Assembly (NCBI RefSeq): GCF_001995095.2
Contig: NZ_MTSD02000001.1
Location: 744,001 to 808,000, forward strand
From: Oceanospirillum linum
GTDB taxonomy: Bacteria; Pseudomonadota; Gammaproteobacteria; Pseudomonadales; Halomonadaceae
Direction: 5' to 3'
Length of the DNA stretch: 64,000 bases
Below, piece after piece: positions 2,387 to 21,831 of the stretch; the first letter of the stretch is position 1, and each line of letters starts with the position of its first letter. The notes under the pieces are model-generated. The model saw only the letters and a list, made by a program, of their open reading frames with translations, did no database searches and was not told where the DNA came from. The translations under genes and the position numbers were made by a program.

Positions 2387-3385
2387 ATGTTTACCGGTCA
2401 AACAATCCTCATCACCGGCGGCACAGGCTCTTTCGGTAACACCTTTGTTCCCATGACCCTGGAGAAATACAATCCAAAAAAAATCATCATTTTTTCCCGG
2501 GATGAAATGAAGCAATGGGAGATGGCCAAAGGCTATCAAAATGACCCTAGAGTGCGGTTTTTCATTGGAGATGTACGCGACAGAGACCGCCTTTATCGAG
2601 CCCTAGATCGTGTTGATTATGTTGTACATGCCGCTGCTACCAAGATCGTACCAACAGCCGAATACAACCCGTTTGAGTGTATAAAAACCAACATCGATGG
2701 TGCCATGAATCTGATTGATGCCTGCATCGACAAAAAGGTTAAAGGTGTTGTTGCCCTTTCTACCGATAAAGCGAGTAGCCCAATCAACCTGTATGGAGCT
2801 ACCAAACTGGCGTCAGATAAACTATTTGTTGCCGGCAACCATTACGCCGGAGGTAAAGGAACTCATTTTTCCGTAGTACGCTACGGTAATGTTATGGGTT
2901 CCCGGGGCTCAGTGATTCCATTCTTTATGTCCATCAAGGACAAAGGGGTTTTACCGATCACAGATGACCGTATGACCCGGTTTATGATCTCCCTGGAAGA
3001 AGGCGTAGAGTTAGTCTGGCATGCATTTGAAGACATGGTCGGCGGTGAGATCTACGTCAAAAAGATCCCTTCAATGAAAGTAACCGACCTTGCCCGAGTC
3101 GTCGCACCTGAAGCCAAGCAGGAAGTCGTTGGCATACGTCCCGGGGAAAAACTTCACGAGCAAATGATCGGCCCTGAAGATGCCTACTTCACCTACGAAT
3201 ATCCTGAACACTACAAAATTCTACCGCAGATAAACAACTGGGATAAGGATTCAAACCGTATCAAAGACGGCAAAAAAGTCCCGGAGGGCTTCGTCTATGC
3301 AAGTGATAACAATACAGAATGGATGACGGATGCTGAGCTGCAAAGCTGGATTGAGGCAAATAGAGAGAAAATCGGGAAAATCTGA
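2387..3385 (+). CDS. pseB: UDP-N-acetylglucosamine 4,6-dehydratase (inverting)
   Basis: First enzyme of pseudaminic acid synthesis: it dehydrates and C5-epimerises UDP-GlcNAc to the UDP-4-keto-6-deoxy-L-altrose-type sugar. The protein has 332 aa, the usual PseB length. The N-terminal NAD(P)-binding motif TGGTGSFG (residues 10-17) and the SDR catalytic LYGATK motif are present. The C-terminal half carries the PseB/FlaA1 features RYGNVMGSRGSV and GIRPGEKLHEQM. It opens the operon and its TGA overlaps the ATG of pseC by one base, which implies translational coupling. Codon use is like that of the flanking flagellar genes. Confidence 0.95.
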   Translation: MFTGQTILITGGTGSFGNTFVPMTLEKYNPKKIIIFSRDEMKQWEMAKGYQNDPRVRFFIGDVRDRDRLYRALDRVDYVVHAAATKIVPTAEYNPFECIKTNIDGAMNLIDACIDKKVKGVVALSTDKASSPINLYGATKLASDKLFVAGNHYAGGKGTHFSVVRYGNVMGSRGSVIPFFMSIKDKGVLPITDDRMTRFMISLEEGVELVWHAFEDMVGGEIYVKKIPSMKVTDLARVVAPEAKQEVVGIRPGEKLHEQMIGPEDAYFTYEYPEHYKILPQINNWDKDSNRIKDGKKVPEGFVYASDNNTEWMTDAELQSWIEANREKIGKI

Positions 3386-4545
3386 TGATTCCATACGGCA
3401 AGCAGGATATTAATCAAGCTGATATTGACTCGGTTCTTGAAGTATTGAATTCCGATTTTCTCACCCAAGGCCCGAAAGTACCGCTATTTGAGCAAACGCT
3501 GGCAAAGAAGGTCGGTGCAAAGCATGCACTCGCAACAAACAGTGCTACCAGTGCACTGCACATCGCCTGCTTAGCTCTCGACCTGGGAAAAGATGACTGG
3601 CTTTGGACAACACCTGTCACTTTTGTTGCTTCGGCCAATTGCGGTCTTTATTGCGGAGCTCAGGTAGACTTTGTTGATATCGACCCTGACACCTATAACC
3701 TCAGCCCTAAAGCACTGGAAGCCAAACTCGTCACAGCCAAGCAGGAAGGAAAGTTACCCAAAGTACTGGTTGCCGTTCACCTCTGTGGACAACCATGCGA
3801 TATGCAGGCGATTCATACTCTGTCACAACGTTATGGTTTCAAGGTTATTGAAGATGCATCACACGCCGTCGGAGGCCGATATCAGGGCGACTATATCGGT
3901 AATAGCCGTTACAGTGACATTACAGTCTTCAGTTTTCACCCGGTAAAAATCATCACCACTGCCGAAGGCGGTATGGCACTGACCAATGATGACCACCTGG
4001 CCGAGAAAATGAACCTGTTCCGCAGTCATGGTGTCACAAGAGACCAGACTCTGATGACCCATGAACCGGATGGCCCCTGGTATTATCAACAGGTAACATT
4101 AGGTTTTAACTACCGTATGACCGAGCTACAGGCTGCATTAGGTATCAGCCAGTCTCAGCGACTGGATAGCTTTGTTGCACGCCGCCATCAACTTGCTCAG
4201 CGCTACAATGAACTATTACAAAACCTACCGCTCACGCTGCCCTGGCAACACCCGGACAGCTACTCAGGCTTGCATCTGTACGTTGTTCGGCTGCAGTTAA
4301 GCAAAATCAGCAAAAACCATCGACAAGTATTTGAAGGCCTGCGAGAGAAAGGTATCGGCGTTAACCTGCATTATATCCCGGTGCATACACAACCTTACTA
4401 TCAGGATATGGGATTCCGTCCGGGAGACTTCCCTGAAGCGGAAAAATACTATAGTGAAGCAATCAGTCTGCCGATGTATCAGGGATTAACAGATCAACAG
4501 CAATCAGACGTTGTGTTGGCTTTAAAGGCTCTGCTGGAGGAGTAA
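3385..4545 (+). CDS. pseC: UDP-4-amino-4,6-dideoxy-N-acetyl-beta-L-altrosamine transaminase
   Basis: PLP-dependent sugar aminotransferase (DegT/DnrJ/EryC1 family), second step of the pathway: it puts an amino group at C4 of the PseB product. It has 386 aa. The PLP-binding EDASHAVGG segment and the Schiff-base lysine in FSFHPVKIITTAEGG are visible, and the C-terminal substrate region includes NLHYIPVHTQPYYQDMGF. The start overlaps the pseB stop. The amino group made here is the one that PseH normally acetylates; pseH is broken in this locus, so the following acylation step is uncertain. Confidence 0.95.
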   Translation: MIPYGKQDINQADIDSVLEVLNSDFLTQGPKVPLFEQTLAKKVGAKHALATNSATSALHIACLALDLGKDDWLWTTPVTFVASANCGLYCGAQVDFVDIDPDTYNLSPKALEAKLVTAKQEGKLPKVLVAVHLCGQPCDMQAIHTLSQRYGFKVIEDASHAVGGRYQGDYIGNSRYSDITVFSFHPVKIITTAEGGMALTNDDHLAEKMNLFRSHGVTRDQTLMTHEPDGPWYYQQVTLGFNYRMTELQAALGISQSQRLDSFVARRHQLAQRYNELLQNLPLTLPWQHPDSYSGLHLYVVRLQLSKISKNHRQVFEGLREKGIGVNLHYIPVHTQPYYQDMGFRPGDFPEAEKYYSEAISLPMYQGLTDQQQSDVVLALKALLEE

Positions 4546-4550
4546 AACGA

Positions 4551-5255
4551 ATGCGTCTTGCTATAATTCCTGCCCGCGGTGGTAGTAAACGAATTCCCCG
4601 GAAGAATATCAAAGTCTTCGGAAACAAGCCTATGATAGCCTGGTCCATAGAAGCTGCATTAAAAAGCGACTGCTTTGATCGCGTTATCGTCTCAACTGAT
4701 GATCAGGAAATTGCAAATACTGCACAGAAATACGGTGCAGAAGTGCCCTTTATACGCCCGGCAGAGCTGGCAGATGACTATGCAGGCACGATTCCTGTAA
4801 TCCGCCACGCCATTGAGCAACTCCAGACTGAAGAACAAACCAAGATCAGTTACGCCTGCTGCATTTATGCAACCGCACCTTTTGTATCCGCACAGGATAT
4901 CCGATCCGGTTTGGAGTCTATCGAAAAAAGTGCTGCTGACTACGCCTTTACTGTCACCAGCTACCCCTTCCCTATCCAGCGGGCAATAAAGCTCACGGAA
5001 CAGGGTAGAATTCACATGTTTAACCCTGAGCATTTTACGACCCGCTCTCAGGATCTTGAAGAAGCTTGGCATGACGCCGGGCAATTTTACTGGGGTACAG
5101 CCAGCGCCTGGCTTCAGGAAAAACCTCTGTTCGCAGAAGGCTCCATCCCCATAAAGCTTCCGCGTCATAGGGTTCAGGATATTGATACACCAGAAGACTG
5201 GCAGCGTGCCGAATGGCTATTCAAAGCGATGCAAGTCAGTCAGGAGGCACCATGA
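4551..5255 (+). CDS. pseF: CMP-pseudaminic acid cytidylyltransferase
   Basis: Last step of the pathway: it activates the nonulosonic acid with CTP to give the CMP-sugar used by glycosyltransferases. The protein has 234 aa and begins with the nucleotidyltransferase signature IPARGGSKRIPRKN (residues 5-18). The internal SYPFPIQRA and DAGQFYWG segments are typical of PseF rather than NeuA. It starts 5 bp after pseC and its stop overlaps the pseG start (ATGA), with a CAGGAGG site ahead of the pseG start. It belongs to the GC-richer, native-looking part of the island. Confidence 0.93.
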   Translation: MRLAIIPARGGSKRIPRKNIKVFGNKPMIAWSIEAALKSDCFDRVIVSTDDQEIANTAQKYGAEVPFIRPAELADDYAGTIPVIRHAIEQLQTEEQTKISYACCIYATAPFVSAQDIRSGLESIEKSAADYAFTVTSYPFPIQRAIKLTEQGRIHMFNPEHFTTRSQDLEEAWHDAGQFYWGTASAWLQEKPLFAEGSIPIKLPRHRVQDIDTPEDWQRAEWLFKAMQVSQEAP

Positions 5256-6334
5256 AAGTCGCTTTCCGCACCGATGCTTCCATACAGATCGGTACCGGCC
5301 ATGTAATGCGCTGCCTGACGCTCGCCACTGAACTGCAGCAGCGTGGACATACCTGTAGCTTTATCTGCCGGGATCATCCGGGGCACCTTGCTGAGTTGAT
5401 TGCCAGTAAAGGCTTTGCAGTTGAACGGCTCCCCCCTGCAGCCCCTGATACAGAAACCTCTGACCTGAACTGGAATGCTCATGCTTCCTGGTTGGGTGCT
5501 TCCTGGCAACAGGATGCGGAACAGACGCGAAGCCTACTTCAAGATCAGCCAGTTGACTGGCTGGTGGTGGATCATTACGCCCTTGACGCACGCTGGGAGC
5601 AAGCACTTAAACTCAATTATAAAAAGCTAATGGTGATAGACGATTTAGGTGATAGAGAACATTTAGCTGATTTACTGCTAGAGCAAAACTATGGCTCTAC
5701 AGCAGAAAAATACCAAGGCTTAGTTCCAGATAACTGTAAAATTTTAGCCGGCACCCAATATGCGTTGTTAAGACCCGAATTTGCCCAATGGCGAGAATAT
5801 AGTCTTAAACGTCGTAAGAATATATCTGAAATAAATAGTATTTTAATCACGATGGGTGGTGTCGACCCAGATAACTACACAGGTAAAATTCTTGAGCAAC
5901 TGGCCAAAACTGAACTAAACCCAAAAAACAAAATTACCGTGGTGATGGGCGCAACAGCTCCACACTTAGCCACGGTTAAACAACAAGCCGCCGCGATGCC
6001 AGTCACCACTCAAGTAAAAGCCAATGTAAGCAATATGGCAGAACTAATGAGTAATGCAGACCTAGCCATAGGCGCAGCCGGGGCAACTACTTGGGAACGT
6101 TGCTGTTTGGGTTTGCCAACCATTCAACTAGTGATTGCAGAAAATCAGCGACAAATAGCCAATGCTTTAGCAAAAGAAAATATGATTATTCTCTTAGAAA
6201 AGTTAGAAGTACTACCTAGTTTGGTGGTTGAAGCAAAATCAAGAATTGATGAGTTAAGTCAACTGAGCGCAAGTAGCTGTGATGGTAAGGGTTCACTTAG
6301 AATCGGCCGTATTATCCTAGAGGGTGAAAAATGA
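5252..6334 (+). CDS. pseG: UDP-2,4-diacetamido-2,4,6-trideoxy-beta-L-altropyranose hydrolase, compositional mosaic
   Basis: It removes UDP from the diacylated altrose intermediate, giving the free sugar for PseI. The start was placed at MKVAFRTDAS (ATG 5252) because a CAGGAGG site lies just before it and the ATG overlaps the pseF stop. Length is 360 aa. The N-terminal GTGHVMRCL motif and a C-terminal GT-B-like half with TMGGVDPDN and GAAGATTWERCCLGLP are present. Base composition changes sharply near 5610, about residue 120: upstream codons are GC-ending, downstream ones are mostly A/T-ending. This reads as a recombination joint inside the gene. The frame is open across the joint, so the product may be functional. 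Confidence 0.92.
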   Translation: MKVAFRTDASIQIGTGHVMRCLTLATELQQRGHTCSFICRDHPGHLAELIASKGFAVERLPPAAPDTETSDLNWNAHASWLGASWQQDAEQTRSLLQDQPVDWLVVDHYALDARWEQALKLNYKKLMVIDDLGDREHLADLLLEQNYGSTAEKYQGLVPDNCKILAGTQYALLRPEFAQWREYSLKRRKNISEINSILITMGGVDPDNYTGKILEQLAKTELNPKNKITVVMGATAPHLATVKQQAAAMPVTTQVKANVSNMAELMSNADLAIGAAGATTWERCCLGLPTIQLVIAENQRQIANALAKENMIILLEKLEVLPSLVVEAKSRIDELSQLSASSCDGKGSLRIGRIILEGEK

Positions 6335-6978
6335 AAATAGCAATTTTAACTTCACCGGGGCAATGGTTTGAACACTATGCTCAAGTACTGTCTGAAAAAC
6401 TTAACAACGCCCCTGTATATTTAGATCATAAAGAAATTGGTTCACCTTTTGATGTGGTATTTATTTTAAGCTACCACAAAATAATTGACTCAAACTACCT
6501 AGAAAAGCATAAGCACAATATTGTTATCCACGAAAGCGATTTACCCAAAGGAAAGGGTTGGGCACCTTTGTTTTGGCAAGTTTTGGAAGGCAATAAAGAA
6601 ATTGTTTTTACCATGTTTGAAGCGGCTGACGGTGTAGACAAGGGTGATGTTTACATGAAAAAAACATTACAACTTACTGGTTCAGAACTTAATAAAGAGT
6701 TAAGAAAAAAGCAAGCAGAGTTAACCCTACAAATGTGCCAAGAATTTATTAATGAATATGACACTTTCAAGCAGCCAACACCGCAAACTGGGAGTGAAAG
6801 CTTTTATCCTAAAAGAACAGCCCAAGACAGCAAGTTAGATGTTAATAAAACGATCAAAGAACAGTTTAATTTATTAAGAATTGTTGATAATAATAGTTAT
6901 CCTGCCTTTTTTGAACTGGATGATTGCCGTTATCGCTTGACTATTGAACTAGATAACAATAAGGAGGAGGGCAGCTAA
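6331..6978 (+). CDS. Formyltransferase-like protein of the pse island (first copy)
   Basis: Small protein of 215 aa resembling the catalytic domain of the Fmt/GART formyltransferase superfamily, which moves formyl from 10-formyl-tetrahydrofolate to amino groups of sugars or other substrates. The hallmark region is VIHESDLPKGKGWAPL (residues 65-80) followed by the acidic GVDKGDVY stretch with Asp103. His67 and Asp103 match the catalytic His and Asp, but the usual Asn two residues before His is Val65. The start overlaps the pseG stop (ATGA), so it is translationally coupled. I infer N-formylation of a Pse intermediate, possibly replacing the lost PseH acetylation. Activity is unproven. Confidence 0.75.
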   Translation: MKIAILTSPGQWFEHYAQVLSEKLNNAPVYLDHKEIGSPFDVVFILSYHKIIDSNYLEKHKHNIVIHESDLPKGKGWAPLFWQVLEGNKEIVFTMFEAADGVDKGDVYMKKTLQLTGSELNKELRKKQAELTLQMCQEFINEYDTFKQPTPQTGSESFYPKRTAQDSKLDVNKTIKEQFNLLRIVDNNSYPAFFELDDCRYRLTIELDNNKEEGS

Positions 6979-7415
6979 TTGACTTGGTTGACCTCAACCT
7001 TGAAGAAAAGCTAAACATATTGGCAATGAGAAACCACCCTAAGGTGCCTGAATGGATGTACACACAAGAATAAATACAAGCTGAACAGCACTTTAGTTTT
7101 ATTAAAAGCTTAATTAACAATAAGCAAAGTCAATACCTTGCAGTAAGGCAGGATAAAAAGTTAGTGGGTGTTATTTATTTTAACCAAATCGACCTTGAAG
7201 AAAAGACAGAATATTTTGGGCTTTATGCTAGATTATTTAAACCAGCAAGAGACGTAGATCGATTATTGGAAGAGATGAGTATGTTTTATGCTAAAAATAT
7301 TTAGCAATTGAAGGCATTAAATTTAGAAGCATTTATAAATAATACGAGAGCAATAAATTTGTATATTAATCCCGAGCTTATTGAAACAGACCGTTTGCAA
7401 AAAAATGGTATTTAA
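6978..7415 (+). pseudogene. pseH: pseH N-acetyltransferase pseudogene with two in-frame stops
   Basis: Between the two formyltransferase-like genes one continuous frame encodes a recognisable PseH-type GNAT protein interrupted by TAA at 7071-7073 and TAG at 7302-7304, ending at TAA 7413-7415. Readable segments are MRNHPKVPEWMYTQE before the first stop, then FIKSL, KLVGVIYF and FGLYA, and after the second stop NNTRAINLY, the usual acetyl-CoA/C-terminal GNAT segment. PseH normally acetylates the C4 amino group of the PseC product. The original start may be TTG 6984; no ATG start precedes the conserved part. There are no frameshifts, only the two nonsense codons, so the decay seems recent. Confidence 0.85.
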
Positions 7416-7447
7416 ATATTATCTATGAGTAAGAGTTTATAATAAAG

Positions 7448-8122
7448 ATGGATTATTTAGTTGCTGCTGTAGGTGAGTGGAATAAAAGCCTTTTTGAACT
7501 AAATTCAAAAAAATTAGAAGGTAGTTGGTATTTTGTATCGACACCTGATGAGCTTAATAGTAAGTTAGAAAAAGGATTGAAACCTCGCTATATATTTTTC
7601 CCCCATTGGCGTTGGATAGTACCTGAAAACATACTCAATCAATACGAGTGTGTGTGTTTTCATATGACTGATGTTCCTTATGGTCGTGGCGGTTCACCTT
7701 TACAAAACCTTATTATTAGAGGCCACCAAGAGACAATTTTAACAGCCCTAAAAATGGAAAAAAGCTTAGATACAGGGCCAGTTTACTTTAAGAAACCATT
7801 AACACTAGCTGGTACAGCTCACGAAATTTATGTTAGAGCATCTAAACTAACCTGGGAAATAATCAAAGAAATGGTTCTGCATGAACCCTTACCCAAGCCA
7901 CAAGCAGGTGATCCTGTAGTTTTCAATCGAAGAAAACCTAGCCAGAGTGAAATTGAACCAAACTTATCTCTTGAGCAACTCTATGACCATATTCGTATGC
8001 TAGACGCACCGAACTATCCCAAAGCATTTCTTAATAAAGATAGCTATTACCTAGAGTTTCAAGATGCCAAACTGGAAGGCAATGAACTAGTCGCAACGGT
8101 AAAAATTCAAATTAAAAGGTAG
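7448..8122 (+). CDS. Formyltransferase-like protein of the pse island (second copy)
   Basis: A 224-aa member of the formyltransferase superfamily, only distantly like the first copy. The core CFHMTDVPYGRGGSPLQNLI (residues 70-89) and SLDTGPVY with Asp108 correspond to the catalytic His/Asp region; His is residue 72 and the canonical Asn position holds Cys70. From memory, proteins with this FHMTD...GRGGSPLQNLI pattern occur in sugar-modification clusters, so the missing Asn may be a trait of the clade. It ends 4 bp before pseI. Likely role: N-formylation of the pseudaminic-type sugar or a precursor; the substrate is unknown. Confidence 0.75.
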   Translation: MDYLVAAVGEWNKSLFELNSKKLEGSWYFVSTPDELNSKLEKGLKPRYIFFPHWRWIVPENILNQYECVCFHMTDVPYGRGGSPLQNLIIRGHQETILTALKMEKSLDTGPVYFKKPLTLAGTAHEIYVRASKLTWEIIKEMVLHEPLPKPQAGDPVVFNRRKPSQSEIEPNLSLEQLYDHIRMLDAPNYPKAFLNKDSYYLEFQDAKLEGNELVATVKIQIKR

Positions 8123-8126
8123 ATGT

Positions 8127-9176
8127 ATGTCTTATATTGAAATTGATGATCGAAAAATAGGTCAAGGCTATCAGCCCTATATTCTGGCAGAGTTATCTGC
8201 TAACCATAATGGTGTTCTACAAAAAGCTCTAGATACGATTACACAAGCTAAAAATTGTGGTGCTGATGCAATTAAACTTCAAACCTATTCAGCAGATACC
8301 ATGACCATAGATTGTGACTCAGAAGAATTTATGATTAAAGGCGGTTTATGGGGTGGTTGTAAGTTATATGACTTATATAAATGGGCACAAACACCTTTTG
8401 AGTGGCACAAGGCAATGTTTGACCATGCACGTAATATAGGTATTACCTGCTTTTCAACACCTTTTGACGAAACAGCGGTTGATTTACTGGAAGATATGAA
8501 TGTACCTGCATACAAAGTTGCATCCTTTGAAGCAACAGATTTACCACTCATTCGCTATATAGCTTCGACAAAAAAGCCCATGATTATGTCAACGGGTATG
8601 GCTAATTTTGAAGAAATATCTGAAATGGTAGCCACTGCAAAAGAGGCAGGATGCCAAGATTTAATTGTATTGCACTGTTTAAGCAGTTATCCAGCACCGG
8701 TAGAGCAGTCAAACTTATTAACCATTCCAGACTTACGTAAAAAGCTTAATGTTCAAATAGGTTTGTCAGATCACACCATTACAAACACAGCATCAATTGC
8801 GGCTACTGCCTTGGGTGCTACGCTGATTGAAAAACACTTTATTCTTGATAGAAATGATAAGGGACCAGATTCTGAGTTTTCAATAGAACCTGCTGAGTTA
8901 ACATCATTAGTTGAACAAACCAAAGATGCTTGGCTATCGCTTGGAGAAGCTGGCTACGAAAGAAAGCCAGCAGAAGAAGCGAATGTTAAATTCAGGCGAT
9001 CAGTATATTTTGTTAAAGATATGCAAGCTGGTGAACCTATTACCCCCGATTCAATTCGCCGTATTCGTCCTGGCTTTGGCTTAGCCCCTAAGTATGAGCA
9101 GGATATTATTGGTAAGCACTTAAAAATAGCCGTTACCCGTGGCACCCCCACCAGTTGGGATTTATTTGATGAGTAA
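8127..9176 (+). CDS. pseI: Pseudaminic acid synthase
   Basis: NeuB-family synthase that condenses the free 6-deoxy-altrose sugar with phosphoenolpyruvate to give the nine-carbon acid. The protein has 349 aa with an N-terminal TIM barrel (ELSANHNG, KLQTYSADT, STPFDETAVDLLED, GLSDHT) and a C-terminal SAF/antifreeze-like domain from about residue 290 (GEPITPDSIRRIRPG). The KLQTYSADTMTID stretch favours PseI over NeuB or LegI. It belongs to the AT-rich part of the island. Its stop overlaps the start of the following deacetylase by several bases. Confidence 0.93.
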   Translation: MSYIEIDDRKIGQGYQPYILAELSANHNGVLQKALDTITQAKNCGADAIKLQTYSADTMTIDCDSEEFMIKGGLWGGCKLYDLYKWAQTPFEWHKAMFDHARNIGITCFSTPFDETAVDLLEDMNVPAYKVASFEATDLPLIRYIASTKKPMIMSTGMANFEEISEMVATAKEAGCQDLIVLHCLSSYPAPVEQSNLLTIPDLRKKLNVQIGLSDHTITNTASIAATALGATLIEKHFILDRNDKGPDSEFSIEPAELTSLVEQTKDAWLSLGEAGYERKPAEEANVKFRRSVYFVKDMQAGEPITPDSIRRIRPGFGLAPKYEQDIIGKHLKIAVTRGTPTSWDLFDE

Positions 9177-9840
9177 AACAGTGTTAGTAGTCGCCGCCCA
9201 CACTGACGATGAAGCTCTTGGCTGTGGTGGAGCAATTGCTAGGCATGTTGCAGAAGGCGAGCAAGTACACCTACTATTTATGACCGATGGCGTAGGCTCA
9301 CGTGAGGTTATAGCAGCAGAAGCAACGGAAAGATTAACAGCAGCACAACAAGCTGCCAAAGTTTTAGGTGTTAGCTCTTTTACTAACCTAAACTTTCCAG
9401 ATAATCGAATGGACTCAGTGTCACTTCTTGATATCGTGCAAAAACTAGAAGCTGTAATCAATGAAGTTCAGCCTGAGGTTATCTATACCCACCATAATGG
9501 CGACCTGAATATTGATCACAGAATAACACATCAAGCCGTTATGACAGCCTGCCGTCCTGTTCCAGGCAGTCCAATTAAAGAAATCTATGCCTTTGAAGTG
9601 TTGTCTGCGACTGAATGGAATACTCCGGGCTTTGCTCCATTCATTCCAAATGTCTTTATTGATATATCAGGTTATATTGATATAAAAATGCAGTCTATTG
9701 AGGCATATTCTCTTGAGATGCGACCCGCTCCACACTCTCGTTCGATAGAAAATGTCAAAAGGTTAGCAGAGTTCCGTGGTAGCTCAGTCGGAATTGAAGC
9801 CGCTGAGGCGATGATGGCAGTTAGGCTAGTTGTTGGCTGA
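9169..9840 (+). CDS. PIG-L/LmbE-family N-deacetylase of the pse island
   Basis: Zinc-dependent de-N-acetylase of 223 aa when started at MSKTVLVVAAH (ATG 9169), which overlaps the pseI stop and matches the family N-terminus. The metal site is visible as AHTDDE (residues 10-15, family AHPDDE) and HHNGDLNIDH (108-117). PIG-L proteins remove acetyl from N-acetyl amino sugars. Its position at the end of the operon suggests it acts on a pseudaminic acid precursor or on the CMP-linked or attached sugar, freeing an amine that a formyltransferase could modify. That role is inference; the fold and metal site are clear. Confidence 0.85.
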   Translation: MSKTVLVVAAHTDDEALGCGGAIARHVAEGEQVHLLFMTDGVGSREVIAAEATERLTAAQQAAKVLGVSSFTNLNFPDNRMDSVSLLDIVQKLEAVINEVQPEVIYTHHNGDLNIDHRITHQAVMTACRPVPGSPIKEIYAFEVLSATEWNTPGFAPFIPNVFIDISGYIDIKMQSIEAYSLEMRPAPHSRSIENVKRLAEFRGSSVGIEAAEAMMAVRLVVG

Positions 9841-9898
9841 TATTATGTGGCGCCACATGCCTTGTACAGGTTTGACTAATCTAGGGCTAGCAGCCAAT

Positions 9899-10956
9899 TC
9901 TGAGTGCAACACCTAATCCAATATCGGATAAGGTGTTGTTATGACTTACAAAGAACTCAACATAGAGGAGCGCGCCACTCTTCAAGTTGGCTTGCTCAAT
10001 AATCTCAGCCTGCGGCGTATTGCTCGTCTCATGGGTCGAAGTCCGTCTACTATCAGTCGAGAGATTCGTCGGAATCAGCTCCCTGATGGACGATATGAAG
10101 CACCAAAAGCTCAGGTTAACCGCTTGGCTCGAAGAGCTGCTTGCTGCCCGAGTAAAAAGCTTATTCAGGGTGAGGGGCTGTTTGAACTGGTCATTTTAAT
10201 GCTGCGCAAGAAGTTCTCTCCACAGCAGATTGCGGGTAACCTTAGACACATGAAACTACCCGGATATGAAGACAGCTACGTCTGTCGAGAGACGATTTAC
10301 AACCCAATTTATGCATTGCCTGTTGGTGAGCTGCGCAAAGAGCTGATTCATTGTTTACGGCAAGGAAAAACGACACGGAGGCGTTGATCGCAGAGGTCAG
10401 ATTCCTGAAGTGGTCAGTATTCACTAGACCGCCAGAAATTGAAGATCGCCTGATGCCAGGTCATTGGGAGCGCGATCTCATCAAAGGTAAAAACAACGCT
10501 TCTGCTGTCGGAACACTGGTTGAACGCACCAGCGGTTATCTCATATTGGTCAAAATGAACGATGCAACAGCCACATCAGCTGTTAAGGGCTTCAGTGCCG
10601 CCTTAAATGGTATGCCTCTGAAACTCCGTAAAAGTATGACCTATGACCAAGGTAAAGAAATGGCCAAGCATGCGGAAATCACGCAACGTACGGGTGTGGC
10701 GATCTATTTTTGTGATCCACACAGTCCATGGCAACGGGGTAGCAATGAGAATATCAATGGCCTGATCCGCCAATATTTACCGAAAGGAACAGATCTGACA
10801 GTGCATAGCCAGGAGCAATTGGATGCGATTGCTTATGAGTTGAACATTAGGCCTCGGCAGCGTTTTGAATACCGTTGCCCAATTGAAGTGATAAGTGATG
10901 TGATGGCTCAGGAATATAATGACACCACATCAGTGCAATAGCGTGTTGCACTCAGA
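9899..10956 (+). mobile_element. IS30-family insertion sequence, decayed
   Basis: About 1.06 kb bounded by perfect 14-bp terminal inverted repeats: TCTGAGTGCAACAC at 9899-9912 and its reverse complement at 10943-10956, with further partial match outward. Inside is an IS30-type transposase broken by two frameshifts. I could not define a target-site duplication. It sits directly after the pse island on the side facing the flagellar genes and may mark the event that brought the AT-rich segment. Confidence 0.82.
9941..10941 (+). pseudogene. IS30-type transposase with two frameshifts
   Basis: The N-terminal part (from 9941) has the IS30 helix-turn-helix, with SLRRIARLMGRSPSTISREI. It is open only to 10387. 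A short stretch in the next frame (about 10375-10425) encodes GVDRRGQIPEVVSIH, and a third frame carries the DDE integrase domain with RPPEIEDRLMPGHWERDLI and SPWQRGSNENINGLIRQYLP, ending at 10941. Reconstructing the family sequence needs two shifts, each moving the frame by +1. Programmed shifting is unlikely because two shifts are needed and a stop follows the middle part. Not expected to transpose alone. Confidence 0.85.
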
Positions 10957-11474: not shown

Positions 11475-13649
11475 CTAGTCGAACATGTCATACCGGGATT
11501 CTTGATCCCAGTCCAAACAATGATCCCTGAAGTCAACTTTAACATCCTCAAAAAATAACTTGAGTTGCTCAAACTGGCCATTTAATGACTCCAGAACAGC
11601 GTCTTTAGGCCCGGGAAGCATAGCCGTTGACGTAATCAGGCTTAACATGTAGAGCAGAGAACCATCAAATAATGAGTATAGCCATGCATGTTGATCATCC
11701 AACACTTGATCACTATGAAACTCTTGTATAAAACGATCTGTTAACACAAAAGCCTGTGGTATCTCCGTGACAGGCGATATCATATTAATAGCATAGTCAC
11801 AGGCCTGATCTACCCGATCCTTAACCAACTCCAGATTTTCTAACAAATGATCTGTATGTGACTCAGGACTAAAGCTGAAAAAAGCAGCAAAAACATCATC
11901 CATAAGCTTCTGCTTTTCAGAAGGAACGCTCAGAGAATCAAGCTCAATATCCTCACTACGAAGAGGCGTAGTACCTTCAATCAGGGCACCATCACTACAG
12001 TTATGAAAGTTCAGGGTACCTTGCATAGTGTAGTTCCAGCCTGAAAGAACAGCTTCCAACTCCCTCTTAAACATCGGGTAAAAGCCAGAAGAATAAACTT
12101 CTTTATCATCAAAGTTTGACTCATACACTTCCGAGTTTTTCTTAAACTTAAAGTTCTCAGCTACATCTTTCTTAAGATATTGATAGCTACTATCTTTAGA
12201 GTGGTGTTTCGTTATATCAACCGACCCCATATCTGTGCCAAAGAAATAAAAATCTTTGAACCCCATAACAACCAGAGAGGTCACCGCAGAGTGGACACAA
12301 CTCGGTGCCAGTCGAGGAAGAATAGCAAGACCTTTATTGGGCAAGGCGTAATTAAGGAATGAAGAACCTGTTTCAATGTCCTTTAAGACCATCCCTTTTT
12401 TCTTAAATAATTCAGCAACACCCGGGTGAACCTGAGATACTTGAATGAGGGTAATGTCCTTCAGCGCATCAGAGAAATTTTCAATGCCATCAGAAGATTT
12501 TTTGATCCAGCATGTAACACTAGCTGTACGTTCTAACTCTACATGAAAATCAGGCTTTACTTTATTTTTAAGCAGTGTTCTTAGAGAAGAACCACAACTA
12601 ACGACAACAAACCTATCTTGATGACTCCTAATAAACTCAAGATCCAGATCCAAGGAGGGGCCATTGCCTATGATCATAACGGGCAAATCACTCTGATCTA
12701 GAGTTTTCTTCAACTCTCTATTAGAAGCCAGAATAGGTATATTCGCTTTGAAGTTACCAATAGTATGCGCCAAGCTGTAACGCGAGTCGTCGTAAAAGCC
12801 AAAGCCTGACAGATAACTATAGCTGATAGCCTCTTTTAGGTTTTTAAAAAGATCTTTATAAGCATCTTTATAAAAAGCCGAGTATAAGTATGCACCGGCT
12901 ACATTGTGGCGACCACTAGCTGAAACCAAAGAAGACACTTCATTAAGAAGTAATTTATGGTCTTTTTCGACAATGACATGCAACCGGAAATCATTATCTA
13001 CTGCTTTTTCTAATATCGACTTCCAGTCCAGAAGTTGCAATGAAGCATAAAAAACATCAGGATCAGGCTCAATAACATAGAAATGCTTAATATCATGACT
13101 GGCATACAGCTTTTCAATATCAAAGCCCATACCAACAGAAAAGCAAAACATAGCATTCACAAAACCAGGCAACTGGTGATCAATATTAACTTCTGATTCA
13201 GCTAATTCTTTGTTATCTTTTGACTGTGAACTTATCAGATTAAGTAACTTTTCACCAATAGTACTTAATGCTGAGAATTGAAATTTAGCCAGTTTCTTAA
13301 GATGAGAAGAATGAATATAGTTAACCTTATCACCAACAGCCTTCTTTTCATCTCCAGGCAAAATAAAGAAAGGCCGCTGAACAGGAGCCTTAACATACCC
13401 ACTAAGATTTTCTAAGCATTGTTGAACAGGGTTCTGCCCATATAACAGAATTTCAGATGGTCGGTCAAAAAGATTAATATTTCCATCAGCATCATAAATC
13501 AGGAATATATTTTCTTCTTTGTAGTCAGAGAATTTGGTGTAAATACTCGGAAGATATTGCTTAAACGCCTCCAGATTATCGGTAAGCCGCTTTTCAATAA
13601 AAGCGGCTACTAACTCCTGATCTGAAAACGAGTTAGTTTTATCCTGCAT
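11475..13649 (-). CDS. maf: Maf-type motility-associated flagellin glycosyltransferase (DUF115)
   Basis: A 724-aa protein of the motility accessory factor family, which transfers CMP-activated nonulosonic acids such as pseudaminic acid to Ser/Thr of flagellins in the cytoplasm before export. The central MAF_flag10/DUF115 domain is recognisable by MIIGNGPSLDLDLEFI and later VMGFKDFYFFGTDMG with HHS. An N-terminal region has FCFSVGMGFDIE and FYVIEPDPDVFYASL. The start was set at ATG 13649 (MQDKTNSF) since the codon before it is TTG; it overlaps the end of fliS by 11 bases. Its closeness to the pse island supports pseudaminic-type sugar as substrate. Confidence 0.87.
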   Translation of the reverse strand: MQDKTNSFSDQELVAAFIEKRLTDNLEAFKQYLPSIYTKFSDYKEENIFLIYDADGNINLFDRPSEILLYGQNPVQQCLENLSGYVKAPVQRPFFILPGDEKKAVGDKVNYIHSSHLKKLAKFQFSALSTIGEKLLNLISSQSKDNKELAESEVNIDHQLPGFVNAMFCFSVGMGFDIEKLYASHDIKHFYVIEPDPDVFYASLQLLDWKSILEKAVDNDFRLHVIVEKDHKLLLNEVSSLVSASGRHNVAGAYLYSAFYKDAYKDLFKNLKEAISYSYLSGFGFYDDSRYSLAHTIGNFKANIPILASNRELKKTLDQSDLPVMIIGNGPSLDLDLEFIRSHQDRFVVVSCGSSLRTLLKNKVKPDFHVELERTASVTCWIKKSSDGIENFSDALKDITLIQVSQVHPGVAELFKKKGMVLKDIETGSSFLNYALPNKGLAILPRLAPSCVHSAVTSLVVMGFKDFYFFGTDMGSVDITKHHSKDSSYQYLKKDVAENFKFKKNSEVYESNFDDKEVYSSGFYPMFKRELEAVLSGWNYTMQGTLNFHNCSDGALIEGTTPLRSEDIELDSLSVPSEKQKLMDDVFAAFFSFSPESHTDHLLENLELVKDRVDQACDYAINMISPVTEIPQAFVLTDRFIQEFHSDQVLDDQHAWLYSLFDGSLLYMLSLITSTAMLPGPKDAVLESLNGQFEQLKLFFEDVKVDFRDHCLDWDQESRYDMFD

Positions 13650-14076
13650 CAATACTCACCATTGGCTCATTAGATCTCTGGTTCTCTGCTTCAATCACAG
13701 CATCCGCCGGTATTGAATCCCATCCAGCTTTAATTTCACCCATAACTTTCTCTGCAGCTTCAACTTTTTCAATACTCATCTCAGCAGATGCTGAAATAAG
13801 CTGATTCAGGCAGAAGTCATATAAAGCTAAAAGATTATCGGAAACTTCTTTATTCTTGTCCGACTGCAGGCTTGCGGCCAATGTTGTGATAATCGCCTGC
13901 GCCTTGGATATATGGAACGATTTCTTCTCATAATCTTTATTTTCAATTGCGACTTTCGCCTGCTTAAGGAAAATCATACAGCCGTCAATTAACTTCTTAG
14001 TCACTTGGTAAGGGGAAGCCCCCTCTAAACCACTTTCCACACTAACATTTTTATACTTACTGATTGCCCTGTTCAT
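13639..14076 (-). CDS. fliS: Flagellin export chaperone FliS
   Basis: Cytoplasmic chaperone that caps the C-terminal helix of flagellin and prevents premature polymerisation. The protein has 145 aa, and the FliS pattern SPYQVTKKLIDGCMIFLKQAKVAIENKDYEKKS begins near residue 21 (GASPYQV; key residues S22, P23, Y24, and L29). The conserved Tyr near the start seems replaced by the YKN in SKYKN at about residue 8. The C-terminal tail after about residue 120 is longer and acidic. It is in the operon flaG-fliD-fliS-maf-fliT and overlaps maf. One chaperone must serve eight flagellins here. Confidence 0.9.
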   Translation of the reverse strand: MNRAISKYKNVSVESGLEGASPYQVTKKLIDGCMIFLKQAKVAIENKDYEKKSFHISKAQAIITTLAASLQSDKNKEVSDNLLALYDFCLNQLISASAEMSIEKVEAAEKVMGEIKAGWDSIPADAVIEAENQRSNEPMVSIDAG

Positions 14077-16390: not shown

Positions 16391-17584
16391 TTAACGCAGC
16401 AGCGACAGTGCGGTCTGCGGCAGCTGGTTCGCCTGAGACAGAATAGTCGTTGATGCCTGCTGGATGATCTGATTACGAGTCAGCTCAGCGGTTTCAGCAG
16501 CAAAGTCGGTATCCTGAATACGGGAACGGGAGTCCGACACGTTTACAACAGCTGTGGTGTTGTTACGTACCGTTGAGGTCAGACCGTTCTGCTCTGCACC
16601 CAGCTTAGCACGCTGAGAGTCAACCTGAGTGATCAGGCCGCTCATGGCATCCAGCAGAGTATCTGTGAGGTGGCCTGTGATCTTGTCAAGTTGCGCATCA
16701 CTGAAGCCACCAACTGAATCAATATTGGCGGCAGTATCAATAGTGAAAGCACCTGCAATCGCTGTCGCAACATGGGAAGCATTACCGCCAGATACACGGC
16801 CAGGCTCTTCAGTAAGCAGCTTAGTCAGGTTATCGATATTGATCTCAGCGCCTTGGTCAGTCTTGGTACCATAGTCTGCCACTGTGATCGAATCGCCTGT
16901 GCCAAAACCAAACAGCGCCTGGTTAGCAGCAGAAATATTGGAAGTACCTGTCACTGCAGCATAAGCTGCTACCATATCACCCAGTGCACCGTACTGGCCG
17001 ATATTCCCAACTGACATTGCTGACATTTTCAGAGTAGCGGTTGCGCCACTGCTACGGCCATACTCACCGAATAAAGCAGTAAGTTCAGCATTACCTGTGG
17101 TTACAGTATCCTGTTCACCAGCCTGGGCACCGGATTGAATCTGGAAACCGGACTCAGGGGAGTCACCGTTCAGAATCTTCAGTGTGCCGTAAGCAGTACG
17201 ATCTGCAATGTCATTATTTACATTCAGCAGCTTAGTAAACTCCTGACCCAGTGCACTGCGGTCATCAGAAGACAGAGTACGGTTACCGCCTTGTACGACC
17301 AGCTGACGCATACGCTGGATGTTATTGGTCACTTCGCCCAGAGCACCTTCAGCAATCTGCGCAATAGAGATACCATCATTGGCGTTACGGCTTGCCTGGT
17401 TCAGACCGGTGATCTGAGTGGTCAGACGATCAGAAATCTGCAGGCCTGCTGCATCATCACGAGCACTGTTGATACGGCTACCGGAAGACAGCTTCTCAAA
17501 GGAGCTGTTCATGCGATCCGTTACGTTAGACAGGTTTTTCTGACCGTTCAGTGCAGAAACGTTAGTATTTACATATAAAGCCAT
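16391..17584 (-). CDS. fliC: Flagellin 1 of 8
   Basis: Filament subunit, 397 aa. The conserved D0/D1 N-terminus (MALYVNTNVSALNGQKNL; SSGSRINSARDDAAGLQIS; the TLR5-type region near residues 85-100) and C-terminus (RSRIQDTDFAAETAELTRN, ending SLLR) flank a variable, Ser/Thr/Ala-rich middle at about residues 170-300, the likely glycan-bearing surface. The ATG follows an AAGGGG ribosome site. Its body is identical to flagellin 4 as far as I compared; only the last residue differs (Arg here, Gly there). This copy is the left-hand member of the tandem duplication and keeps the ancestral 3' end. Confidence 0.97.
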   Translation of the reverse strand: MALYVNTNVSALNGQKNLSNVTDRMNSSFEKLSSGSRINSARDDAAGLQISDRLTTQITGLNQASRNANDGISIAQIAEGALGEVTNNIQRMRQLVVQGGNRTLSSDDRSALGQEFTKLLNVNNDIADRTAYGTLKILNGDSPESGFQIQSGAQAGEQDTVTTGNAELTALFGEYGRSSGATATLKMSAMSVGNIGQYGALGDMVAAYAAVTGTSNISAANQALFGFGTGDSITVADYGTKTDQGAEINIDNLTKLLTEEPGRVSGGNASHVATAIAGAFTIDTAANIDSVGGFSDAQLDKITGHLTDTLLDAMSGLITQVDSQRAKLGAEQNGLTSTVRNNTTAVVNVSDSRSRIQDTDFAAETAELTRNQIIQQASTTILSQANQLPQTALSLLR

Positions 17585-17667
17585 GGGTACACCCCTTAAA
17601 CTTCCATTAAAAAATAAAAAACTAATGCAATCCTAAAATCCAGACCACTTAAGCTTCTGTGAATACT

Positions 17668-17694
17668 ATATCGACCCTGTTCAGCATTCCTTGA
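17668..17694 (-). promoter_or_regulatory. Sigma-28 promoter of flagellin 1
   Basis: Minus strand -35 TCAAGGAA, 11-base spacer, -10 GTCGATAT; a recognisable but imperfect FliA site about 84 bp before the ATG. Confidence 0.8.
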
Positions 17695-17716
17695 ATAAAT
17701 TCATCCCTTTTAAAAC

Positions 17717-17741
17717 AAAAAAATCCCGCCGAAGCGGGATT
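17717..17741 (-). terminator. Terminator of flagellin 2
   Basis: ATCCCGC-CGAA-GCGGGAT hairpin with adjacent A-tract (U-run on the minus strand), 27 bp after the stop. Confidence 0.9.
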
Positions 17742-17767
17742 CTTTAATCTTACCGGCGTTAAATCGA

Positions 17768-18970
17768 TTAACGCAGCAGCGATAGTGCCGTTTGTGGCAG
17801 CTGGTTCGCCTGAGACAGAATAGTCGTTGATGCCTGCTGGATGATCTGGTTACGAGTCAGCTCAGCAGTTTCAGCAGCAAAGTCGGTATCCTGAATACGA
17901 GAACGGGAATCCGACACGTTTACAACAGCCGTGGTGTTGTTACGTACCGTTGAAGTCAGACCGTTCTGCTCTGCACCCAGCTTAGCACGCTGAGAGTCAA
18001 CCTGAGTGATCAAGCCACTCATGGCATCCAGCAGAGTATCCGTAACAAAGCCGTGGGCAGTATTGACTTGAGCATCCGTTAAACCACCATCAGATGCATC
18101 AGCGATTGCGGCCATGTTCGTTAGCCCCATAGCGGCAAGCATATTATTACCCAGACCCGCAGCGATGTTGCTCACATTTGCCAGTCCGGAGCCCGCTTCC
18201 GTTTCGGCTTCCAGAAGTTTAGCGAAATTGGCAACATTAACCTCAATACCACCGCCCTGATTCGTGCCTATTTCATTGGCTTGAATTGAGCCAGTCGTTG
18301 TACCAAACAACTCAGTTGCAGCCGTCGTAATGTTCGACTGCCCCGTAACAACAGCATAAGCTGCAACAATCTTACCTAAGGTGCCATAGTTTTGCAGGTT
18401 ACCACTCATAGCGGACATGTTCAGAGTAATATTTTCTTTCTTGGCGATCTCTCCAAACAGCGCCGTTAACTCAGCATTACCTGTAGTCACTGTATCCTGT
18501 TCACCTGCCTGGGCACCGGACTGGATCTGGAAACCAGACTCAGGGGAGTCACCGTTCAGGATTTTCAGTGTGCCGTAAGCGGTACGATCTGCAATATCGT
18601 TGTTTACATTCAGCAGCTTAGTAAATTCCTGACTTAGGGCACTGCGGTCATCTTCAGACAGCGTACGGTTACCGCCTTGCACGACCAGCTGACGCATACG
18701 CTGGATATTATTGGTCACTTCACCCAGAGCACCTTCAGCAATCTGCGCAATAGAGATACCATCGTTGGCGTTACGGCTTGCCTGGTTCAGGCCGGTGATC
18801 TGAGTGGTCAGACGATCAGAAATCTGCAGACCTGCTGCATCATCACGGGCACTATTGATGCGGCTACCGGAAGACAGCTTCTCAAAGGAGCTGTTCATAC
18901 GATCCGTTACATTAGACAGGTTTTTCTGACCATTCAGTGCAGAAACGTTAGTATTTACATATAAAGCCAT
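17768..18970 (-). CDS. fliC: Flagellin 2 of 8
   Basis: Flagellin of 400 aa with the same conserved ends as its neighbours and a different central region (about residues 172-300, with KKENITLNMSAMSGN and the acidic LLEAETEAG stretch). It ends SLLR. The protein is identical to flagellin 5, its partner in the tandem duplication. Own sigma-28 promoter and own terminator make it a single-gene transcription unit. The ribosome site is AAGGGG just before ATG. Confidence 0.97.
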   Translation of the reverse strand: MALYVNTNVSALNGQKNLSNVTDRMNSSFEKLSSGSRINSARDDAAGLQISDRLTTQITGLNQASRNANDGISIAQIAEGALGEVTNNIQRMRQLVVQGGNRTLSEDDRSALSQEFTKLLNVNNDIADRTAYGTLKILNGDSPESGFQIQSGAQAGEQDTVTTGNAELTALFGEIAKKENITLNMSAMSGNLQNYGTLGKIVAAYAVVTGQSNITTAATELFGTTTGSIQANEIGTNQGGGIEVNVANFAKLLEAETEAGSGLANVSNIAAGLGNNMLAAMGLTNMAAIADASDGGLTDAQVNTAHGFVTDTLLDAMSGLITQVDSQRAKLGAEQNGLTSTVRNNTTAVVNVSDSRSRIQDTDFAAETAELTRNQIIQQASTTILSQANQLPQTALSLLR

Positions 18971-19057
18971 GGGTATCCCCTTAAACTTCCATTAAAAAAT
19001 CACTAAAAACCATGCGTGATCCATAAAACTACAACCACATTAGTTTCTGTAAATACT

Positions 19058-19084
19058 ATATCGACCCTCTGCCCAAATCCTTTA
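19058..19084 (-). promoter_or_regulatory. Sigma-28 promoter of flagellin 2
   Basis: Minus strand -35 TAAAGGAT, 11-base spacer, -10 GTCGATAT. The -35 is closer to consensus than that of flagellins 1 and 3. Confidence 0.82.
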
Positions 19085-19099
19085 ATTAATTTACCTTTT

Positions 19100-19127
19100 A
19101 AAAAAAATCCCGCCGGAGCGGGATTTT
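19100..19127 (-). terminator. Terminator of flagellin 3
   Basis: Hairpin AAATCCCGC-CGGA-GCGGGATTT with A/T tracts on both sides; works on paper in both directions. Confidence 0.9.
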
Positions 19128-19149
19128 TATTTTACTGGCGTTAAATCGA

Positions 19150-20322
19150 TTAACGCAGCAGAGACAGTGCTGTCTGTGGCAGCTGGTTCGCCTGAGACAG
19201 AATAGTCGTTGATGCCTGCTGAATGATCTGATTACGAGTCAGCTCAGCGGTTTCAGCAGCAAAATCGGTATCCTGAATACGGGAACGGGAGTCCGACACG
19301 TTTACAACAGCCGTGGTGTTGTTACGTACCGTTGACGTCAGACCGTTCTGCTCTGCACCCAGCTTAGCACGCTGCTTATCAACCTGAGTGATCAGGCCGC
19401 TCATAGCATCCAGCATAGTATCCGTTGCAAAGCTGTTAATGCTATTAACTTGGGCATCAGAGAAGCCAGTAGAAATTGCACCTACACCACTCATACCTAC
19501 CAAGGCACCAAATGCAGTAGCAGTATTAGAGTTACCATCTGCAGCAACAGCCTGATCGGACAAGATCTTAGTCAGCTCATCGATATCAACTTTAGCAGTA
19601 CCGCCATTGTTAGTACCCAGTTCATTCGCTGCAACAGAGCCTGTACGGGTACCAAAGATAGCATCAGCAGCTGCGGCCATATCAGACTCACCAGTTACTG
19701 CAGCATAAGCGATAACCAGCTTACCTAAAGTACCGAAACTGGTTGCTGTGGTCGTACTAATTGCAGACAGCTTACCAGTGATACCTTCATCATCTGCAAT
19801 TTTACCAAACAGCGCACTTAGCTGAGCATTACCGGTAGTTACAGTATCCTGTTCACCCGCCTGAGCACCGGATTGAATCTGGAAACCGGACTCAGGGGAG
19901 TCACCGTTCAGGATCTTCAGCGTGCCGTAAGCGGTACGATCTGCAATATCATTATTCACGCCCAGAAGCTTAGTAAACTCCTGACCCAGTGCACTACGAT
20001 CATCTTCCGACAACGTGCGGTTACCGCCTTGGACAACCAGCTGACGCATACGTTGGATGTTATTGGTCACTTCACCCAGAGCACCTTCAGCAATCTGTGC
20101 AATAGAGATACCATCATTGGCGTTACGGCTTGCCTGGTTCAGACCGGTGATCTGAGTGGTCAGACGATCAGAAATCTGCAGACCTGCTGCATCATCACGA
20201 GCACTGTTGATACGGCTACCGGAAGACAGCTTCTCAAAGGAGCTGTTCATGCGATCCGTTACGTTAGACAGGTTTTTCTGGCCGTTCAGTGCAGAAACGT
20301 TAGTATTTACATATAAAGCCAT
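19150..20322 (-). CDS. fliC: Flagellin 3 of 8
   Basis: Flagellin of 390 aa; conserved D0/D1 ends and a shorter variable middle (about residues 172-290; ADDEGITGKLSAISTTT near its start). It ends SLLR. It is identical in protein to flagellin 6. Small differences from the other members in the conserved part include LGVNND near residue 121 and VDKQRAK in the C-terminal D1 region. Own promoter and terminator. Confidence 0.97.
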   Translation of the reverse strand: MALYVNTNVSALNGQKNLSNVTDRMNSSFEKLSSGSRINSARDDAAGLQISDRLTTQITGLNQASRNANDGISIAQIAEGALGEVTNNIQRMRQLVVQGGNRTLSEDDRSALGQEFTKLLGVNNDIADRTAYGTLKILNGDSPESGFQIQSGAQAGEQDTVTTGNAQLSALFGKIADDEGITGKLSAISTTTATSFGTLGKLVIAYAAVTGESDMAAAADAIFGTRTGSVAANELGTNNGGTAKVDIDELTKILSDQAVAADGNSNTATAFGALVGMSGVGAISTGFSDAQVNSINSFATDTMLDAMSGLITQVDKQRAKLGAEQNGLTSTVRNNTTAVVNVSDSRSRIQDTDFAAETAELTRNQIIQQASTTILSQANQLPQTALSLLR

Positions 20323-20405
20323 GGGTACACCCCTTAAACTTCCATTAAAAATTAAAAAACTAATGCAATCCTAAAATTAAGACCGCTTAAGCTTCTGTGA
20401 ATACT

Positions 20406-20432
20406 ATATCGACCCTGTTCAGCATTCCTTGA
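20406..20432 (-). promoter_or_regulatory. Sigma-28 promoter of flagellin 3
   Basis: Minus strand -35 TCAAGGAA, 11-base spacer, -10 GTCGATAT, the same as before flagellin 1. Confidence 0.8.
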
Positions 20433-20454
20433 GTAAATTCATCACTTTTAAAAC

Positions 20455-20479
20455 AAAAAAATCCCGCCGAAGCGGGATT
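20455..20479 (-). terminator. Terminator of flagellin 4
   Basis: ATCCCGC-CGAA-GCGGGAT hairpin with A-tract. This 3' region matches that of flagellin 7, not flagellin 1, as expected from the crossover. Confidence 0.9.
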
Positions 20480-20505
20480 CTTTAATCTTACTGGCGTTAA
20501 ATCGA

Positions 20506-21699: not shown

Positions 21700-21782
21700 G
21701 GGTACACCCCTTAAACTTCCATTAAAAAATAAAAAACTAATGCAATCCTAAAATCCAGACCACTTAAGCTTCTGTGAATACT

Positions 21783-21809: not shown

Positions 21810-21831
21810 ATAAATTCATCCCTTTTAAAAC

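Follow-up and report, generated by a model that had tools for sequence, protein, structure and literature searches.

The pse operon of Oceanospirillum linum, contained in the 64-kb stretch of DNA analysed here (the window), combines the genes of the pseudaminic acid (Pse) pathway with two formyltransferase genes, called here FT1 and FT2, and a gene for a PIG-L/LmbE-type de-N-acetylase. Its gene content points, with modest confidence, to 5,7-di-N-formyl pseudaminic acid (Pse5Fo7Fo), made for flagellin, as the product. This reading is carried by open genes with the predicted folds and conserved catalytic residues, by a dead pseH lying among them and, in other pseI loci, by the coupling of FT2 to PIG-L and the occurrence of FT1 against PseH. 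We infer the substrates, the choice of amine, the order of the steps, the product and the use of the sugar by the glycosyltransferase Maf as follows. PseB and PseC would supply a uridine diphosphate (UDP)-2-acetamido-4-amino sugar, whose 4-amine (the later N7) FT1 is predicted to formylate in place of the dead PseH. PIG-L is predicted to strip the 2-N-acetyl group inherited from N-acetylglucosamine (GlcNAc), and FT2 to formylate the amine so freed (the later N5). PseG, PseI and PseF would finish the activated sugar, which Maf would transfer to flagellin.

The operon and its broken pseH

Between the two formyltransferase genes lies what is left of pseH, the N-acetyltransferase gene (6978..7427, +). 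The frame from 6978 is PseH-like over about 140 residues and scores 114 bits to NCBIfam PseH (cut-off 93.1). It is interrupted by in-frame stops at 7071, 7302 and 7413, one TAA and one TAG falling inside the match and the third stop near its end. The glycine-rich loop of the profile (RGKGLG), which we take to be the acetyl-CoA loop, is replaced in the remnant by unrelated residues; its closest intact relatives are the pseH genes of Psychrobacter (35–38% identity) and of locus L191 (38%). When the whole genome (98.5% complete) was searched with NCBIfam PseH, the remnant was the sole match above the cut-off, the next best reaching 33 bits, and a second PseH elsewhere in the genome was therefore rejected. 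With its sole PseH match broken, the operon thus lacks the usual N-acetyltransferase.

FT1 (6331..6978, +; 215 residues) is a formyltransferase of the type designated below as subtype II and matches PF00551 at 42.9 bits (cut-off 26.1). The best fold match of its AlphaFold2 model, for which the predicted local distance difference test (pLDDT) score is 90, is PDB 1zgh, with a template modelling (TM) score of 0.78 and a Z score of 20.6 at a root-mean-square deviation of 3.2 over 204 residues; sugar formyltransferases (VioF and WbkC among them), Fmt, HypX and ArnA come next. Formyltransferases use an Asn-x-His...Asp catalytic triad, the NxH motif being known from ArnA and Fmt. FT1 retains the catalytic His67 and Asp103, both identical in all 38 aligned FT1 relatives (38 of the 39 FT1 loci, with L054 left out of the residue alignment). 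A formyltransferase fold thus occupies the pseH slot of a pse operon, as for a PseJ-type replacement of PseH, the window's own pseH being present and dead. Identity with Fmt was rejected (59.2 bits against a TIGR00460 cut-off of 201.5); a separate 365-residue formyltransferase-like frame lies elsewhere in the genome (C220:563 kb).

FT2 (7448..8122, +; 224 residues) matches PF21553 at 77.9 bits (cut-off 27) and shares 26–28% identity with FT1 over the matched part. It belongs to the same family as PDB 1zgh (E 1.7e-63, 44% identity; TM score 0.93 for its AlphaFold2 model, pLDDT 92), and the catalytic His and Asp are identical in the window FT2 and in all 97 of its aligned relatives. Fmt was again rejected as an identification (35.5 bits against the same cut-off). 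PDB 1zgh, from Clostridium thermocellum, is named 'methionyl-tRNA formyltransferase', whereas those members of the FT2 family that were examined belong to pse operons, and the window FT2 is not an Fmt by score. This label, found within the family on PDB 1zgh and on plasmid AP017960.1, is probably a misannotation of enzymes that would make surface sugars. Among plasmids, one relative of FT2 was found, in [Synechococcus] sp. NIES-970, where the order is FT2, an LmbE-like gene and a NeuB-like gene; a search of plasmids for FT1 relatives gave none.

The PIG-L gene (9169..9840, +, taking the ATG at 9169 as its start where the list of open reading frames (ORFs) had a GTG at 9139) scores 106 bits to PF02585 (cut-off 28.2). 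It carries both metal motifs of the PIG-L/LmbE family, AHxDDE and DLNxDH, and residues H11, D13, D14, D112, D116 and H117 are each identical in 94 of 94 related operon PIG-Ls. The PIG-L deacetylases MshB, BshB and GlcNAc-PI deacetylase all have a 2-acetamido sugar as their substrate. The window protein was rejected as the bacillithiol enzyme BshB1 (73.7 bits against a TIGR04001 cut-off of 182.5) and as BshB2 or MshB, its scores lying under their cut-offs. A second cluster in the same genome (L035, G000:C109:48500-68000) encodes a PseI/NeuB-like synthase (428 bits to TIGR03586), a PIG-L at 9707-10381 with 62% identity to that of the window, and an aminotransferase-like ORF, as well as two further ORFs that we take to be WbqC-like and methyltransferase-like; this cluster possibly makes another re-acylated nonulosonate.

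The other five genes, all on the + strand, encode PseB, PseC, PseF, PseG and PseI, each of which exceeds its NCBIfam equivalog cut-off for the pseudaminic acid pathway: pseB, the inverting UDP-GlcNAc 4,6-dehydratase (2387..3385; TIGR03589, 547.5 bits, cut-off 407.75); pseC, the aminotransferase (3385..4545; TIGR03588, 566.5 bits, cut-off 423.5); pseF, the pseudaminic acid cytidylyltransferase (4551..5255; TIGR03584, 350.3 bits, cut-off 205.7); pseG, the UDP-sugar hydrolase, probably a chimera (5252..6334; TIGR03590, 340.1 bits, cut-off 153.55); and pseI, the pseudaminic acid synthase (8127..9176; TIGR03586, 498.4 bits, cut-off 340.25). The ends of the operon genes overlap or almost touch, except around the dead pseH: the end of pseG at 6334 and the start of FT1 at 6331 give a 4-nt overlap, and the 5' end of the PIG-L gene overlaps the 3' end of pseI. 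An earlier, sequence-only reading of the window had described two unlike formyltransferase-like genes and a deacetylase packed with pseG and pseI around a broken pseH; the coordinates and family matches agree with this, and the three in-frame stops confirm the break.

Distribution of FT1, FT2 and PIG-L among pseI loci

NCBIfam PseI was searched in three overlapping sets of genomes, drawn from the class (369), the order (390) and the family (275). The resulting census of 155 pseI loci, which leaves out the window and L035, was labelled with profiles built for this analysis. Full flanks (at least 3.5 kb before and at least 2.5 kb after pseI) were available for 138 loci, and the 17 short-flank loci were set aside. 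PIG-L was present in 18 of 18 loci with FT2 and in 2 of the 120 others (Fisher p 1e-20), while pseH accompanied FT1 in 1 of 22 loci, against 83 of the 116 without FT1 (p 2e-9), both p values ignoring the kinship of the 138 loci. Independent pairs were also taken from a PseI tree of 226 rows (census and FT2 loci; FastTree, with long-branch warnings), leaving out L048 and L172, which share one contig and are cut short, with L088 and L116 also named for exclusion. FT2 and PIG-L changed together in 10 of 10 pairs (p 0.002), and in 8 of 8 when census rows alone were used (p 0.008); FT1 and PseH changed in opposite directions in a mean of 9.6 of 12 pairs, and the same way in 0.1 (p 0.004). FT1 and FT2 showed no association with each other, either in the 138-locus census or in the PseI-tree pairs. 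With 19 changes of the PIG-L state on the PseI tree, PseI type does not follow it in any simple way, and the PseI clade was rejected as an indicator of N5 formylation. In 32 of the 138 loci all four labels were missing, which is likely explained by a narrow PseH profile or by a gene located elsewhere.

Species genomes were also scanned for FT2 with patterns from its close relatives, and the best 80 of 158 FT2 relatives were kept; some organisms occur both in this set and in the census (for example L034/L084, L160/L057 and L241/L092). Among these best 80, a PIG-L lies within 4 kb of FT2 in 77 loci. The remaining three comprise L088, with a truncated PIG-L directly after FT2, and L048 and L116, whose sequences stop within pseI or shortly past it. 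Fifteen of the same 80 loci also carry FT1. A lenient PseH search gave no match near FT1 in 35 of the 39 FT1 loci, 24 from the census and 15 FT2-seeded.

Three architectures assign the two formyltransferases to different amines. In architecture A (19 of 138 loci), FT1 stands alone in the pseH slot with no PIG-L; FT1 could therefore replace PseH, that is, act on the 4-amine that becomes N7. Architecture B (15 of 138) keeps pseH beside FT2 and PIG-L, which would therefore act on the other amine, the 2-amine that becomes N5. Architecture C combines FT1, FT2 and PIG-L without PseH, and the window is a C operon with the remains of pseH. The order pseG-FT1-FT2-pseI-PIG-L recurs in Pseudomonas composti (L087), Salinicola endophyticus (L092), Motiliproteus coralliicola (L105), Herbaspirillum sp. 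(L112), a Salinisphaerales metagenome-assembled genome (MAG; L100), a proteobacterial MAG (L059) and two Opitutae/Opitutaceae MAGs (L095 and L108), and in these eight loci no PseH-like match lies near FT1, even at the lenient threshold. A variant order, pseG-FT1-FT2-PIG-L-pseI, is found in Moorena bouillonii, Azospirillum soli and L046, and the phyla in which FT2 and PIG-L adjoin pseI or lie not far from it include Pseudomonadota, Cyanobacteriota and Verrucomicrobiota. With the same order present in other genera and phyla, the combination is therefore conserved and no local accident.

The sequence-only reading had not recognised this gene combination and had proposed looking for its order elsewhere; that search succeeded (L087, L092 and L105, for example), and the combination, free of a dead pseH, turns out to occur well beyond the window. 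Its suggestion that a formyl group replaces the acetyl group at the PseH amine gains support from gene distribution, FT1 usually replacing PseH, and a deacetylation followed by formylation at the other amine is likewise favoured by FT2 travelling with PIG-L. It had not said which protein acts at which amine and had left the choice between a mono- and a di-formyl product open; assigning FT1 to N7, and PIG-L with FT2 to N5, would favour the latter.

FT1 itself comes in two subtypes. In a tree from a quick search over 40 FT1 rows, including the window, and four FT2 outgroup rows, one clade with a support of 100 in the Shimodaira–Hasegawa-like approximate likelihood ratio test (SH-aLRT) unites 21 operons without PIG-L and L054; the remaining 17 named rows all have PIG-L, giving two changes overall. 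In the group without PIG-L (not counting L054), Ala follows the catalytic His in all 21 members; in the other group, Glu does so in 16 of 17. The window FT1 has Glu68 and is therefore placed in subtype II despite its long branch. Subtype I was drawn almost exclusively from the census, and subtype II mostly from FT2-seeded loci. FT1 may sense the other amine, perhaps since PIG-L acts early.

These patterns lead us to propose tentatively, at close to even chances, a two-slot N-acyl code. The N7 slot would be filled by PseH or FT1, and the N5 slot would hold the native acetyl group or be rewritten by PIG-L with FT2 or by PIG-L with another acyltransferase. The slots would be swapped independently, and FT1 would divide into subtypes by the presence of PIG-L, as if reading the other amine. 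The window, which to all appearances records the replacement of one N-acyl pattern by another, would then have been caught midway from acetyl to formyl at N7, with 5,7-di-N-formyl Pse on flagellin as the outcome. Every slot combination of the scheme was seen among the loci. Three census loci with PIG-L but no FT2 (L193, L205 and L255) have other acyltransferase-like ORFs before pseI, as judged by eye: L193 (2687-9262) and L205 (4629-9457) carry acyl carrier protein-like, adenosine monophosphate (AMP)-ligase-like, SDR-like and GNAT-like ORFs upstream of pseI and PIG-L that may together form a module for a different acyl group at N5, and L255 carries a GNAT-like ORF before pseI. On this gene content, PIG-L seems to free N5 so that various acyl groups can be attached there anew.

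Difficulties and rival readings

Several observations weigh against the di-formyl reading and the rule behind it. The Asn of the NxH motif is Val in the window FT1 and Cys in the window FT2, and no aligned relative of either has Asn there (the frequency of Cys in FT2 is biased, one pattern used to find the loci having contained Cys). The window FT1 also sits on a long branch (1.73), its best full-length identity being 45%, or 49% over a 155-residue local match, and relaxed constraint on it is possible. The opposition of FT1 and PseH loses strength when census rows alone are used (5.2 of 6 pairs, p 0.06). A PseH-like domain lies within 4 kb in 4 of the 39 FT1 loci (L054, L056, L080 and L139), all of which also have FT2 and PIG-L, and in L044 a pseH-like gene lies about 4 kb from FT1. 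The domain in L080 is weak (18 bits at the lenient threshold), and in L139 (5140-6360), L080 (6743-7978) and L056 (6725-7960) a single frame holds both the PseH-like and the FT1 domains, perhaps as bifunctional fusions. Three acyltransferases for two amines go beyond what the simple rule explains; some of the domains may be inactive, or other products or a different target may be involved.

A further difficulty concerns PseJ, which is reported to replace PseH in the Pse pathway and to give a mono-formyl sugar, with no PIG-L involved. FT1 resembles it in its position, since it fills the place of pseH and seldom has PseH nearby, as a protein standing in for PseH should, and differs in its weak sequence match, which has an E of 4e-5 over residues 2-132 and ranks behind those to 1zgh, ArnA, Fmt and VioF. 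Being no closer to PseJ than to other formyltransferases, FT1 was rejected as a PseJ orthologue by sequence. PseJ, reportedly characterised by Reimer et al. in 2018, is listed in the PDB as 6ci2 and 6ci4; it is absent among the 50 Foldseek matches listed for FT1 or FT2 and from a second list of structure matches for FT1, absences that rule nothing out.

The strongest of the alternatives, unlikely as it is, holds that only one formyltransferase works and that the product is mono-formylated: either FT1 gives a 7-N-formyl sugar while PIG-L and FT2 do nothing or merely leave the 5-amine free, or the active enzyme is FT2 and FT1 is in decay. The long branch of FT1, the dead pseH next to it and the IS30-family element at the operon end all fit this reading, and the loci that add a PseH-like domain to FT1 and FT2 indicate that both formyltransferases need not be required. 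Yet FT1, FT2, pseI and PIG-L have stayed open, with catalytic residues kept where tested, while the pseH between them collected three stops; without FT1, the genome would have no recognisable N7 acyltransferase; and architecture C persists without pseH in other genera and phyla.

Rather less probable is that the PIG-L/FT2 pair leaves the N5 acetyl group alone and works instead on a different amino sugar in the flagellar glycan, or on the N7 acetyl group, which it would exchange after PseH. PIG-L enzymes do take several substrates, and the PDB matches of the window PIG-L include a hydratase. Against this, the two genes are neighbours of pseI, or close to it, in several phyla, and an exchange at N7 would be pointless in architecture C, where FT1 would already have formylated N7 and the FT2/PIG-L pair is kept nonetheless. 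Moreover, 5-N-formyl legionaminic acid and N5-lactoyl Pse both exist (PMC6137143 and PMC7281560). Finally, it is very improbable that the operon is dead and decaying after the loss of pseH and the IS30 insertion, for although pseH is broken and the element lies downstream, all other pse genes are open, with ends that overlap or nearly touch except around the dead gene, and beyond the element, itself past the last gene, follow Maf and at least five flagellin-like genes.

Origin of the block, related sugars and flagellar context

The 3' part of pseG and everything up to and including PIG-L form a lower-GC (guanine plus cytosine) block (5600..9840, +), probably imported, as judged from composition and a switch in nearest relatives. 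The GC content drops from 0.56 to 0.40 inside pseG near 5600, and the nearest relatives change at the same place (about residue 120). Upstream, the window PseB is 90% identical to that of the same-genus genome G003, and the first 120 residues of PseG are nearest to L185, L175, L117 and L031 (59-64%), with Psychrobacter at 46-50%. After residue 120, the identity of PseG to L232, L191 and Psychrobacter is 60-70%, higher than the 47-56% to genomes of the same genus, and PseI is 83-86% identical to those of Psychrobacter and L191, whose loci (L038-L040 and L191) have architecture B. The GC step, the switch of relatives and the kinship of PseI with B operons together suggest that the operon probably acquired a B block by an exchange through pseG. 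We infer the donor, order and timing of what followed: FT1 was probably inserted before pseH, which decayed once its job had been taken. Within the genus the slot is variable, holding pseH in G001 and G005, a type I FT1 in G003 and neither label in G002; G004 gave no PseI match. L232 (G902), whose pseG ranks among the nearest relatives of the latter part of the window pseG, has between pseG and pseI (2844-4570) unlabelled 337-residue and HAD-like (by eye) 236-residue proteins, and no PseH or FT1.

Formylated nonulosonates themselves are already known, as is PseJ; what is new here is the pairing of PIG-L with FT2 as a module, the logic of two slots and a product predicted to carry two formyl groups. 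In a text search of the open-access literature, seen in part and with subscription papers outside its scope, we recognised no PIG-L in a pse operon, no PIG-L/FT2 module for N5 and no di-formyl Pse. Three known sugars come nearest. Halorubrum sp. PV6 makes 5-N-formyl legionaminic acid from a cluster with a predicted formyltransferase gene, HrrPV6_1050, and thus resembles the window in its formylated N5 and in that gene; it differs in being archaeal, in its legionaminic sugar and in that the words deacetylase and PIG-L are absent from the text describing it (PMC6137143). Pseudoalteromonas distincta KMM 638 has 7-N-formyl Pse, the N7 formyl group matching the prediction for architecture A, whereas its retained N5 acetyl group differs from that for the window (PMC3210612). 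The capsule of Psychrobacter marincola contains a Pse that bears (R)-lactoyl at N5 and acetyl at N7 (PMC7281560), the pattern expected of PIG-L with another acyltransferase and PseH, differing in the lactoyl group, found instead of formyl, and in its capsular location. The N-acyl groups of bacterial nonulosonic acids vary, and PIG-L with FT2 offers a gene candidate for deacetylation and formylation at N5. With the coupled pair found next to pseI in several phyla, the acyl pattern may become predictable from genomes.

Past PIG-L, the operon ends at an IS30-family element (9899..10956, +) bounded by perfect 14-nt inverted repeats (9899-9912 / 10943-10956). Near 10385 the transposase gene breaks into two ORFs, the first of which scores 67 bits to the IS30 transposase, below the cut-off of 80. 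Farther downstream lie the Maf flagellin glycosyltransferase (11475..13652, -; PF20157, 152.8 bits), ORFs that we take to be FliD-like and FlaG-like, and at least five flagellin-like genes identified by eye. With these as neighbours, flagellin is the likely target, and Maf the likely user of the sugar. The tandem flagellin-like genes occupy 16391-23085 (-), and by eye the first and fourth, and likewise the second and fifth, are near-identical, which argues that a multi-gene unit was duplicated.

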